This document shows positions 25,043 to 26,548 of a stretch of DNA of 64,000 nucleotides, piece after piece. Below the pieces are notes generated by a model. That model made no database searches, was not told the DNA's origin, and saw nothing but the letters and a program-made list of their open reading frames with translations. The stretch's first letter is position 1, and the number at the start of each line of letters is the position of its first letter. The position numbers and the translations under genes are program-made. Source of the stretch: Parahoeflea halophila (GTDB lineage: Bacteria; Pseudomonadota; Alphaproteobacteria; Rhizobiales; Rhizobiaceae); contig NZ_OCPC01000001.1 of NCBI RefSeq assembly GCF_900220985.1, positions 62,001 to 126,000 on the forward strand, given 5' to 3'.

Positions 25043-25224
25043 AATTTGATTCTTCTCTTGAACTGGCCCGGCTGCAGATTACATCAGCGTCCGATGCGGG
25101 CCAATGATGGCATTACAGGCACTTTGCATCGCAGTATCATGGATTTGCACAGCTATGCGGCAAGCCCAGCTGATTCCCTGAGCAGCCATGCAAACTTGGA
25201 ATAGCTTCCATGAAATTATTGCAC

Positions 25225-25253
25225 TGCACAAATCGATTGAATGCCCCTATATT
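25225..25253 (+). promoter_or_regulatory. DUF1127 promoter, copy 1
   Basis: TGCACA (25225-25230), 17 nt, TATATT (25248-25253). It sits in a larger block shared with copies 2 and 3: CTGCACAAA, exactly 13 nt, CCTATAT. The start codon lies 59 bp after the -10 box. Confidence 0.75.
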
Positions 25254-25312
25254 CAAGTCATCGGAACGCCACGGTGGTGGGCCGAACAACAGCAGGACAG
25301 AGGATGACATCG

Positions 25313-25453
25313 ATGAAACTGATCAAATCCTTCGCCAGCTGGCGGAAATACCGCGAAACATGCGTCGAGCTGAACAGGCTTTCCGAACGCGAGTTGAGCG
25401 ACATAGGCATGTCACGAAGCGATATTCCATTCGCTGCACGGCGCGCCCTGTAA
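25313..25453 (+). CDS. DUF1127 mini-protein A
   Basis: 46 residues, basic and Arg-rich: a first amphipathic helix (MKLIKSFASWRKYRETCVEL) and the DUF1127 core LSERELSDIGMSRSDIPFAAR. The ATG at 25313 has an AGAGGATG site; in-frame Met codons at 25304 and 25241 are less likely starts. DUF1127 proteins are small, helical and abundant in alphaproteobacteria. In Rhodobacter one member (CcaF1) is an RNA-binding protein made from the same transcript as the CcsR sRNAs. In Brucella several are activated by the LysR-type regulator VtlR. Three CCTCC-loop hairpins follow immediately, as at the Rhodobacter locus. Confidence 0.92.
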   Translation: MKLIKSFASWRKYRETCVELNRLSERELSDIGMSRSDIPFAARRAL

Positions 25454-25468
25454 GAAATTCAAGAATTC

Positions 25469-25505
25469 GGAGCGGCTTCCTCCTCCTCCTCCCAAAAGCC
25501 GCTTC
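25469..25505 (+). ncRNA. CcsR/cuckoo-type hairpin 1
   Basis: A 10-bp stem (25469-25478 with 25496-25505, one G-U pair) encloses a 17-nt loop reading CCTCCTCCTCCTCCCAA. The loop is complementary to Shine-Dalgarno sequences. It starts 15 bp after the DUF1127 A stop. Confidence 0.8.
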
Positions 25506-25510
25506 GATGT

Positions 25511-25543
25511 GACTGGTGTTCATCCTCCTCCCGAACATCAGTC
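25511..25543 (+). ncRNA. CcsR/cuckoo-type hairpin 2
   Basis: An 11-bp stem (GACTGGTGTTC / GAACATCAGTC, one G-U pair) encloses an 11-nt loop ATCCTCCTCCC. It is separated from hairpin 1 by 5 nt, so it is probably processed from the same transcript. Confidence 0.8.
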
Positions 25544-25553
25544 TTTACAAATG

Positions 25554-25596
25554 ACGCTCACCGGATCCTCCTCCCCCGGTGAGCGTTATTTTTTTG
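25554..25596 (+). ncRNA. CcsR/cuckoo-type hairpin 3 with terminator U-tract
   Basis: An 11-bp stem (ACGCTCACCGG / CCGGTGAGCGT) encloses the same 11-nt loop as hairpin 2 (ATCCTCCTCCC). It is followed by TATTTTTTTG, so this hairpin also ends the DUF1127 A transcript. Confidence 0.82.
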
Positions 25597-25735
25597 TCCA
25601 GCGTCGAGCCTGGTTCCGGAGCAGCAGCCGCCATATCAGCGCCGGTCAGGCCCTATGCCATCAGATCAACCTGCCGGGGATGTTTCTTTAGGCGCGCGAC
25701 CCGCGGCCTACATGATCGCACCCCATGCGATAAAA

Positions 25736-25761
25736 CGTTAACTCGCAAGGGTTTGTTAACG
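25736..25761. repeat. GTTAAC inverted repeat upstream of DUF1127 B
   Basis: CGTTAAC, 12 nt, GTTAACG: a perfect 7-bp inverted repeat centred about 56 bp before the -35 box of promoter copy 2. A regulator site is possible; no equivalent was seen before copies 1 and 3. Confidence 0.45.
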
Positions 25762-25803
25762 CGCATTGCAGATTTCGCATGGCTCCTTTGCGATATTCCG
25801 CAC

Positions 25804-25832
25804 TGCACAAATCGACTGTCTATTCCTATATC
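25804..25832 (+). promoter_or_regulatory. DUF1127 promoter, copy 2
   Basis: TGCACA (25804-25809), 17 nt, TATATC (25827-25832), within CTGCACAAA, 13 nt, CCTATAT. The 60-bp leader before the start codon is similar in length to copy 1. Confidence 0.75.
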
Positions 25833-25891
25833 AGGATCAACGAAACACGGCGTACTGAACACCATCAGCGCCACATTGAAAGGCAATGACC

Positions 25892-26035
25892 ATGAACTTC
25901 CGTAAGGCTTACAAAGACTGGCGCGACTACCGCAACACCGTCAATGAACTGTCCCGCATGTCCGAGCGCGAACTCAACGACCTCGGCATCTCCCGCGGTG
26001 ACATCCCGTTCGTTGCTCGCCGTCCCGCCCGGTAA
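25892..26035 (+). CDS. DUF1127 mini-protein B
   Basis: 47 residues: MNFRKAYKDWRDYRNTVNEL, then SRMSERELNDLGISRGDIPF and VARRPAR. It is closely related to protein A (same W-R-Y-R spacing, SERELxDxGxSRxDIPFxARR) and is probably a paralogue. It is short enough to be missed by default gene callers but has its own promoter, a start codon in the right place and a terminator 47 bp after the stop. Predicted to be a basic, two-helix cytoplasmic protein. The DUF1127 role is described under protein A; the function of this copy is not known. Confidence 0.9.
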   Translation: MNFRKAYKDWRDYRNTVNELSRMSERELNDLGISRGDIPFVARRPAR

Positions 26036-26081
26036 GAACTGAAGACCTCTGCCCGGTTCCAACAACCGGTCATTCAAAACG

Positions 26082-26112
26082 GCGTCCTGGCAACAGGGCG
26101 CTGTTTCTGTTT
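26082..26112 (+). terminator. Intrinsic terminator of DUF1127 B
   Basis: An 8-bp stem (GCGTCCTG / CAGGGCGC, one G-T pair) with GCAA tetraloop, followed by TGTTTCTGTTT. The loop lacks a CCTCC motif, unlike the hairpins after gene A. Confidence 0.7.
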
Positions 26113-26309
26113 CGGATCTGGTCAATCCGGATGGACGAGCCACGGTAATCGCGCCCAGCACATTTGGGGCCAATGAGGCAACAAATCCAGCACAGGATTA
26201 TCGGAAGGATACGATGCAACAGATGCCACTTTTCAAGGCATCTTCAAAGCTTGACGAAGCTCTAGTGGAGCCATTCCGGTTGCGCATATCTGGACTGCAA
26301 ATATTGCGC

Positions 26310-26338
26310 TGCACAAACGGGTGGCAAACGCCTATATT
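26310..26338 (+). promoter_or_regulatory. DUF1127 promoter, copy 3
   Basis: TGCACA (26310-26315), 17 nt, TATATT (26333-26338), within CTGCACAAA, 13 nt, CCTATAT. The spacer sequence differs from copies 1 and 2, so the retained elements stand out. Confidence 0.75.
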
Positions 26339-26401
26339 GTAGGCATCAGAGTGAACAATTCGACATCAACGCCCGCACCGGGCGCATCCAAGGAGACTGC
26401 C

Positions 26402-26548
26402 ATGAAAATTTTCAGCAGAGCCCGCAGCTGGATGAAGTCTCGCCAGACCGCACAGCAGCTTGCAAATCTGTCCAACGAAACCCTGGCCGACATCGGCCTG
26501 ACCCGTTTCGACATCGACAATGTGGCCCGCGGCCTTCGTACCCGCTAA
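26402..26548 (+). CDS. DUF1127 mini-protein C
   Basis: 48 residues, more distant from A and B: MKIFSRARSWMKSRQTAQQL, then ANLSNETLADIGLTRFDIDNVARGLRTR. It keeps the L-D-I-G-x-x-R-x-D-I core of DUF1127. A strong ribosome site (AAGGAG) precedes the ATG at 26402; an upstream in-frame ATG (26321) lies inside the promoter and is rejected. A terminator follows at once, so it is monocistronic under its own promoter. Likely basic and cytoplasmic; specific function unknown. Confidence 0.92.
   Translation: MKIFSRARSWMKSRQTAQQLANLSNETLADIGLTRFDIDNVARGLRTR

Follow-up and report, generated by a model that had tools for sequence, protein, structure and literature searches.

In Sinorhizobium meliloti, the loops of NfeR1, an RNA of the ar14 family, pair with mRNA ribosome-binding sites and thereby silence specific mRNAs (as reported in PMC7143759 and PMC8844928), and the NfeR1 promoter is activated by LsrB via a TGCA-N6-GCAT box at −72 to −60 (as described in PMC10746234). 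According to the review PMC7143759, ar14 is represented in most symbionts and pathogens of the Rhizobiaceae, Brucellaceae, and Phyllobacteriaceae. In Rhodobacter sphaeroides, the CcsR1–4 RNAs are released from the ccaF1 3′ UTR, which involves RNase E and CcaF1 (according to PMC8625941). A 2011 study placed the Rhizobiales forms with three and four hairpins in a single family and noted their likeness to an R. sphaeroides RNA of two hairpins (as reported in PMC3927594); for the association of a CcsR-like RNA with a DUF1127 gene, a 2015 paper introduced the name “CIN1 locus,” according to the quotation in PMC10253847. DUF1127 proteins were reported to act through protein contact in Agrobacterium, while no RNA binding was found for Salmonella YjiS (per PMC12501420); CcaF1, in contrast with YjiS, binds RNA. 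Brucella VtlR, the same regulator as LsrB, activates three DUF1127 genes, the motif being CAATGCAGCCATGCA (as given in PMC12595884), and in Agrobacterium tumefaciens VtlR binds and activates the promoter of a small-protein gene orthologous to the Brucella VtlR targets (as described in PMC7486931). LsrB was described as restricted to Rhizobiales (in PMC11975290).

We analyzed a three-hairpin locus in a 64-kb window (the whole stretch of DNA under study) and computed the RNA family, its structure and conservation, its place behind a gene, the composition of the promoter, and the presence of a close LsrB homolog in the genome. The features are listed in Table 1.

Table 1. Features of the DUF1127–ar14 locus and of the two following DUF1127 genes (positions in the window).
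Feature	Position	Strand	Basis or detail
LsrB/VtlR-like box TGCA-N6-GAAT	25189..25202	+	7 of 8 fixed bases of TGCA-N6-GCAT
Promoter block GCACTGCACAAA, −35 region	25221..25232	+	conserved
−10 hexamer TATATT	25248..25253	+	promoter scan
DUF1127 gene 1, 46 aa	25313..25453	+	conserved ATG at 25313, stop 25451–25453
A/T-rich linker, DUF1127 stop to hairpin 1	25454..25466	+	13 nt; candidate processing site
ar14 small RNA	25462..25591	+	covariance model RF02344
Hairpin 1	25467..25507	+	12 bp, 17-nt loop with CCTCCTCCTCCTCCC; anti-SD motif 25485–25493
Hairpin 2	25511..25543	+	11 bp, loop ATCCTCCTCCC; anti-SD motif 25524–25532
Hairpin 3	25549..25591	+	16 bp in fold, loop ATCCTCCTCCC; anti-SD motif 25567–25575
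T-tract, seven T	25589..25595	+	sequence
Promoter-like stretch, DUF1127 gene 2	25767..25832	+	sequence, motif search
DUF1127 gene 2, 47 aa	25892..26035	+	ATG 25892; PF06568 63.6 bits
Promoter-like stretch, DUF1127 gene 3	26306..26338	+	GCGCTGCACAAA ... TATATT; promoter scan, motif search
DUF1127 gene 3, 48 aa	26402..26548	+	ATG 26402; PF06568 43.9 bits

The ar14 match (RF02344, Rfam cmscan) scored 98.8 bits with a cut-off of 58.8 and an E value of 5.6e-17; it spanned the whole model (1–123) and was not truncated. In a laxer covariance search, CcsR1 (RF02791) stayed below threshold (35.6 bits at 25509–25592, cut-off 65.3), and the Rfam family “6C” appeared at an E value of 0.19. The first-pass annotation, which had called the locus CcsR/cuckoo-type, was right as to the kind of RNA, with its anti-Shine-Dalgarno (anti-SD) hairpins, but ar14 is the nearer family. 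It had also read the locus as a cluster of three small RNAs; the ar14 model covers one three-hairpin RNA and, judged by this model, the three hairpins are a single ar14 RNA.

The fold of the hairpin segment had an energy of −60.4 kcal/mol, versus −28.55 ± 3.35 for shuffles (z −9.51; 0 of 200 shuffles as low). The three consecutive hairpins seen at first reading are real; their stems, given there as 10–11 bp, proved to be of 12, 11, and 16 bp, and the spacers are of 3 and 5 nt in the fold, not 5 and 10 nt. The last two loops are indeed identical, and the last hairpin is followed by a U-tract, as had been stated. The anti-SD motif is unpaired in each of the three loops, whereas the stems are variable, which is a trait of ar14. 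A–U pairs lie at the foot of hairpin 3, and this hairpin together with the T-tract is likely the intrinsic terminator of the transcript; it was missed by the terminator scan because the loop limit of the scan is 8 and the loop of hairpin 3 is 11.

The motif CCTCCTCCC was found three times in the window, every copy in these hairpins. The raw count was rejected as weak evidence since shuffled windows contained on average 0.67 copies (100 shuffles) and 5 of the 100 reached three; it is the clustering of CCTCCTCCC in the loops that counts. A search of the whole genome for the double motif with a gap of 15–45 nt gave three matches, two at this locus and one on another contig, versus none for the reversed-pattern control.

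The ar14 search covered 61 genomes (that of the window and 60 relatives) and found the RNA in 45 of them, above the cut-off in 36. In total, 91 loci were analyzed, three weak matches (<32 bits) being left out; 17 of the 91, in which no two exact copies of CCTCCTCCC lie within 75 nt of each other, were excluded from later counts. Locus L063 (G023:C2:250697-250814), from a relative with a 1.1-Mb genome, also has no such pair and scored 61.7 bits, above the ar14 cut-off. The conservation in relatives on which the first-pass annotation had staked its proposal was borne out: 17 of the 18 genomes of the genus keep the RNA behind a DUF1127 gene, with 26–31 nt from the stop codon to the first loop motif, the exception being a genome (G007) that is 77% complete.

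In the alignment of the 17 same-genus copies, 99.7% of cells pair, and 7 of 37 pairs are changed on both sides, including 4 of 11 in hairpin 2 and 2 of 16 in hairpin 3. Shuffles, which ignore the relatedness of the copies, gave 1.7 such pairs (0 of 500 reached 7), and slid-structure controls gave 0 or 1. One of the five covariation measures, further pair types, showed no excess over shuffles (229 of 500); in helix 1, two pairs were broken, each in one copy. CCTCCTCCC is kept in every one of the three loops in 17 of 17 copies, while the stems carry compensatory changes and the loop of hairpin 1 varies in length; the earlier observation that the loops are kept while the stems differ thus holds across the genus. 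GAATTCG in the linker between the stop codon and hairpin 1 is invariant in the same copies. A second copy with two hairpins (L002, G000:C11:124433-124577; ar14 39.2 bits) lies outside the window in the same genome, with no DUF1127 gene found in its 3.1-kb locus; two-hairpin second copies are listed in 16 of the 18 genus genomes, and the composite promoter defined below was found in 0 of these 16 orphan copies.

The gene in front of the RNA belongs to the DUF1127 family, as had been annotated (PF06568, 51.3 bits with a cut-off of 23.3; Pfam, longer frame 25241–25450), and its ATG is conserved as the start in the alignment of same-genus loci. The first loop motif lies 31 nt past its stop codon on the same strand, as in the CIN1 and ccaF1–CcsR loci. 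Three DUF1127 genes stand in a row at 25241–26548 and share one promoter block, with anti-SD hairpins behind the first only; the motif search of the window revealed no CCTCCTCCC behind genes 2 and 3. These findings bear on the possibility that the hairpins serve as a 3′-end stabilizer or terminator of the DUF1127 mRNA, or as an anti-SD sponge lowering translation in cis or globally. The resemblance of hairpin 3 and its T-tract to a transcript terminator and the capacity of the loops to pair with any strong SD sequence fit such a role; however, a single hairpin would suffice to terminate, genes 2 and 3 have no such hairpins, the motif is preserved in all three loops of the 17 copies while the stems vary, and NfeR1 of the same family silences specific mRNAs through its loops (PMC7143759, PMC8844928, as cited above). 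We consider a stabilizer or sponge quite improbable.

The LsrB/VtlR-like box sits 59 nt before the −10 hexamer, in a region aligned across the genus; the exact consensus TGCA-N6-GCAT comes from S. meliloti. Overlapping it, positions 25178–25192 carry 12 of the 15 bases of the Brucella VtlR motif, with GCAGCCATGCA at 25182. In the −10 region of the 17 same-genus loci, CTAT is invariant and TATATT occurs with variants, and transcription is predicted to start near 25260. The stretch before DUF1127 gene 2 contains an exact TGCA-N6-GCAT (25767–25780), GCACTGCACAAA at 25800, and the −10-like hexamer TATATC (25827–25832). Three copies of GCNCTGCACAAA occur in the window, one upstream of each DUF1127 gene, and the pattern GCNCTGCACAAA-N9..18-CTATAT has three matches in the 4.19-Mb genome, again one per DUF1127 gene (reversed control 0). 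In the genus, 14 of 18 genomes contain the same pattern, with 35 occurrences in total (none in the control), and comparison of positions placed all 35 matches at most 0.8 kb from an ar14 locus. On its own, the box lacks specificity, since the window also has two further exact TGCA-N6-GCAT on the plus strand and one on the minus strand.

A promoter placed directly upstream of the RNA, as in NfeR1, was not found here: the promoter precedes the DUF1127 gene, and the promoter scan listed no sigma70-like promoter on the plus strand between 25260 and 25467. This speaks against transcription of the RNA alone from a promoter inside the DUF1127 coding sequence, in which case a stand-alone sRNA would lie behind the gene by chance, a reading that draws on the own sigma70 promoter of NfeR1 (reported in PMC7143759). 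The short distance between stop codon and first loop motif conserved in the genus is a second argument against it. Since hairpin 1 begins 13 nt past the stop codon, which leaves no room for a promoter, and none is listed inside the gene, the ar14 RNA is most likely derived from the 3′ UTR of the DUF1127 transcript, with processing in the linker as its likeliest origin.

The genome encodes a close homolog of LsrB, whose match to 9hh1, the LsrB of A. tumefaciens (according to PMC11975290), extends over 298 aa and scores 542.8 bits; none of the best 25 of the 55 NCBIfam models matched by this protein passes its cut-off. The gene closely precedes two ar15/AbcR RNAs in tandem (95.3 and 95.0 bits), and lsrB beside tandem AbcR RNAs is the arrangement described for Agrobacterium and Sinorhizobium in PMC7486931.

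The wider distribution of such loci was analyzed by a scan of named genomes for three exact motifs, which gave at least 120 loci and is a sample rather than a census, with taxon groups taken from record titles. Loci were classed by a hairpin test and a DUF1127 profile HMM, those with a DUF1127 stop codon at most 60 nt upstream being termed embedded. Among the matches listed, the 20 Rhodobacterales loci comprised 16 embedded, one at 61–400 nt behind the gene, one without it, and two dropped by the hairpin rule; 2 of 2 Stappiaceae and 4 of 4 unplaced alphaproteobacterial loci were embedded, and 0 of 4 in Devosia. The 82 other Hyphomicrobiales loci among the matches listed were divided into 15 embedded, 7 at 61–400 nt, and 60 without a DUF1127 gene within 400 nt; for some loci of the last kind, the 8-kb stretch ends close to the RNA. 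Eight non-alphaproteobacterial loci were rejected because they fail the stem test and look like low-complexity matches. The same test (median score below 6 dropped) also removes the two Rhodobacterales loci, among them L151, a probably genuine locus in which two well-formed hairpins follow a DUF1127 gene at 20 nt. Hairpin arrays with 10 to 12 CCTCCTCCC per cluster stand behind one DUF1127 gene in five Rhodobacterales loci (L193, L177, L156, L199, and L145). Six Mesorhizobium loci (L120, L135, L148, L163, L195, and L211) have two tandem ar14-like units behind one DUF1127 gene, the first motif lying 19–24 nt past the stop codon and again at 196–241 nt.

The ar14 model matched 8 of 8 tested loci (six from Rhodobacterales, one from Roseibium, and one from Phyllobacterium) with E values up to 0.01 and reached its cut-off in four of them (Paracoccus, Rubellimicrobium, Roseibium, and Phyllobacterium). 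CcsR1 matched 6 of the 8 (five Rhodobacterales loci and the Roseibium one), in none of them at its cut-off (best 58.7). Judging from these scores, the Rfam families ar14 and CcsR1 grade into each other. That both models match 6 of the 8 loci, and that the parts follow in the same order as in ccaF1–CcsR1–4, could point to a genuine CcsR locus controlled by heat-shock sigma factors, in which the DUF1127 protein acts as an RNA-binding maturation factor. CcsR1 is, however, below its cut-off both here (35.6 vs. 65.3) and in all eight related loci, one three-hairpin unit stands here in place of four CcsR RNAs, and the promoter found is LsrB/sigma70-like; we regard a true CcsR locus as very unlikely.

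To compare promoters, a composite rule was applied: a box with 7 of the 8 fixed bases of TGCA-N6-GCAT and, 57–61 nt on, a hexamer with 5 of 6 matches to TATATT. It was set with the promoters of the window and PnfeR1 (PMC10746234) in view, so the own genus is not an independent test. The comparison included 223 hairpin clusters minus that of the window, 10 dropped by the stem rule, and one exact duplicate; expected values were obtained from windows drawn at random in the same loci, and relatives cannot be counted as independent cases. Among the matches listed, the composite was found upstream of the DUF1127 gene in 31 of 45 embedded Hyphomicrobiales loci (2.9 expected), namely 14 of 18 in the own genus and 17 of 27 in others, while 14 of the 45 fail the rule. 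The distance from the −10 hexamer to the first loop motif was 215–253 nt in 26 of these 31 loci and 410–417 nt in 5. Among the matches listed, copies 61–400 nt behind a DUF1127 gene had the composite in 2 of 22 cases (0.2 expected).

Stand-alone copies carried the composite directly before the RNA in 24 of 94 cases among the matches listed (0.53 expected), 70 failing the rule, and those cut by a contig or stretch edge in 0 of 4 among the matches listed. In 20 of 25 stand-alone copies with the composite, a count that includes one duplicate, the −10 hexamer precedes the first loop motif by 25–34 nt, which would place the transcription start at the foot of hairpin 1. Such genes, together with the 60 of 82 Hyphomicrobiales loci among the matches listed (outside Devosia and Stappiaceae) that have no DUF1127 gene within 400 nt, are what an internal promoter at our locus has in its favor. 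Against it, none of the 45 embedded Hyphomicrobiales loci among the matches listed has the composite in the 160 nt that precede the first loop motif, and we hold separate transcription of the RNA here to be unlikely.

Beyond Hyphomicrobiales, the composite was found in 4 of 15 embedded Rhodobacterales loci among the matches listed (0 expected) and, among the matches listed in this order, in 0 of 1 embedded but cut, 0 of 7 with a gap, and 0 of 1 stand-alone; unplaced loci had it in 3 of 5 embedded and 0 of 1 gap cases among the matches listed. The four Rhodobacterales loci (L146, L174, L190, and L209) have a TGCA-N6-GCAT-type box and a −10-like hexamer at LsrB spacing, and another LysR-type regulator may act there.

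The operon and the stand-alone gene thus seem to have promoter type and RNA in common, the difference being a stretch of about 205 nt that comprises the leader and the DUF1127 gene. It is conceivable, at somewhat less than even confidence, that stand-alone NfeR1-type genes and DUF1127–ar14 operons are two states of one unit with an LsrB-type promoter. NfeR1 would then be a DUF1127 messenger minus its coding sequence, or the operon would be an sRNA gene that gained one. If the two states are real, LsrB/VtlR would control the protein and the RNA together in the operon state, and the Rhodobacterales version of the box, present in 4 of 15 embedded loci among the matches listed, would make LysR-type control older than the stated restriction of LsrB to Rhizobiales. 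Given its occurrence in Rhodobacterales, Stappiaceae, and several Hyphomicrobiales, the embedded form may be the older state. Counting against the view of two states are the 14 of 45 embedded and 70 of 94 stand-alone loci among the matches listed that fail the composite rule, the choice of that rule with the window and PnfeR1 in view, and the relatedness of the genomes.

We consider it probable that the locus encodes an ar14 (NfeR1/cuckoo-type) sRNA located in the 3′ UTR of a DUF1127 gene under an LsrB/VtlR-type promoter, freed by processing and silencing mRNAs. By analogy with NfeR1 and CcaF1/CcsR, we infer its expression, processing, base pairing, and control by LsrB, as well as whatever part the DUF1127 protein may have in maturation. 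Transcription from a single LsrB/VtlR-type promoter, with its box near 25189 and its −10 hexamer at 25248, would yield an RNA of about 335 nt, consisting of the coding sequence of the 46-residue DUF1127 protein and the three anti-SD hairpins and ending at hairpin 3 and its T-tract. Cut by an RNase E-type activity in the A/U-rich linker that follows the stop codon, it would release a stable three-hairpin RNA, the CCUCCUCCC loops of which would pair with G-rich SD sites and silence a set of mRNAs, probably including solute-uptake genes. The titration of a ribosome or an RNA-binding regulator, which the first-pass annotation had offered as a possibility, drew neither direct support nor a direct objection from these results; NfeR1 is published as pairing with mRNA ribosome-binding sites.

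Full complements of the 9-nt loop motif before an ATG were found three times in the genome (reversed control 1): one opens a GMC oxidoreductase frame of at least 501 aa, and the other two frames are of 8 and 23 aa. The rarity of these complements, and the fact that a GMC oxidoreductase is not an uptake gene, count against the proposed scheme. So do the inexact box (7 of 8 bases), the 14 of 45 embedded Hyphomicrobiales loci among the matches listed that fail the composite rule, the sub-threshold NCBIfam scores of the LsrB homolog, and, for a maturation role of the protein, the reports on Agrobacterium and Salmonella in PMC12501420. The 8-nt version gave 25 matches at 22 distinct sites (control 2), which mostly reflect that any strong SD sequence fits and are leads only. 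The GMC oxidoreductase gene (L220, L237; G000:C6:415854-415870), whose ribosome-binding site GGGAGGAGG is a full complement of the loop motif, is a possible target. Another possible target, from among the 8-nt matches, is a gene for a DctP-type solute-binding protein (L232, G000:C2:1551355-1551369; 98.7 bits); its ribosome-binding site, GGAGGAGGAT, is complementary over ten bases to the loops of both hairpin 2 and hairpin 3.

Compared with the described systems, the locus shares with ar14/NfeR1 (Smr14C2) of S. meliloti three hairpins with CCUCCUCCC loops, variable stems, a length of about 120 nt, and a promoter with a −10 hexamer and a putative LsrB-type box, which here has 7 of 8 bases. NfeR1, however, has its own promoter at the start of the RNA (according to PMC7143759 and PMC10746234), whereas here the promoter precedes the DUF1127 gene, and the distance from the first base of its −10 to the first loop motif is 237 nt. 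With ccaF1–CcsR1–4 of R. sphaeroides (CcsR1, RF02791) it has in common a DUF1127 gene followed by anti-SD hairpins in one unit and a terminal terminator structure; that operon differs in its four CcsR RNAs and its RpoHI/RpoHII promoter (described in PMC10253847), in contrast with three hairpins and an LsrB-type promoter here, and the RpoHI/RpoHII promoter of so comparable an operon counts against our preferred interpretation. The locus also fits the description of the CIN1 locus/cuckoo RNA family (Reinkensmeier and Giegerich 2015) as quoted in PMC10253847. The VtlR/LsrB-activated genes of Brucella and Agrobacterium are likewise small DUF1127 genes under a LysR regulator, but no anti-SD RNA is described behind them in the parts of PMC12595884 and PMC7486931 consulted.

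The literature already covers the RNA family, the way it acts, and its association with DUF1127 genes; the rhizobial counterpart to CcsR announced by the first-pass annotation is accordingly not a first, ar14 being in Rfam and present in most Rhizobiaceae symbionts and pathogens (per PMC7143759). In the literature searched, which included few subscription papers and to which the 2015 cuckoo paper does not belong, no publication joins DUF1127, an ar14/NfeR1 RNA, and LsrB in one locus. Where a DUF1127 protein and the RNA share a promoter, phenotypes ascribed to one (phosphate and carbon metabolism, stress) may in part be due to the other. The comparison puts the symbiosis sRNA NfeR1 and the stress RNAs CcsR on one footing and suggests a shared promoter logic. 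What appears to be new, as found by computation, is the LsrB/VtlR-like promoter box of the DUF1127–ar14 loci, common to some of the stand-alone copies.
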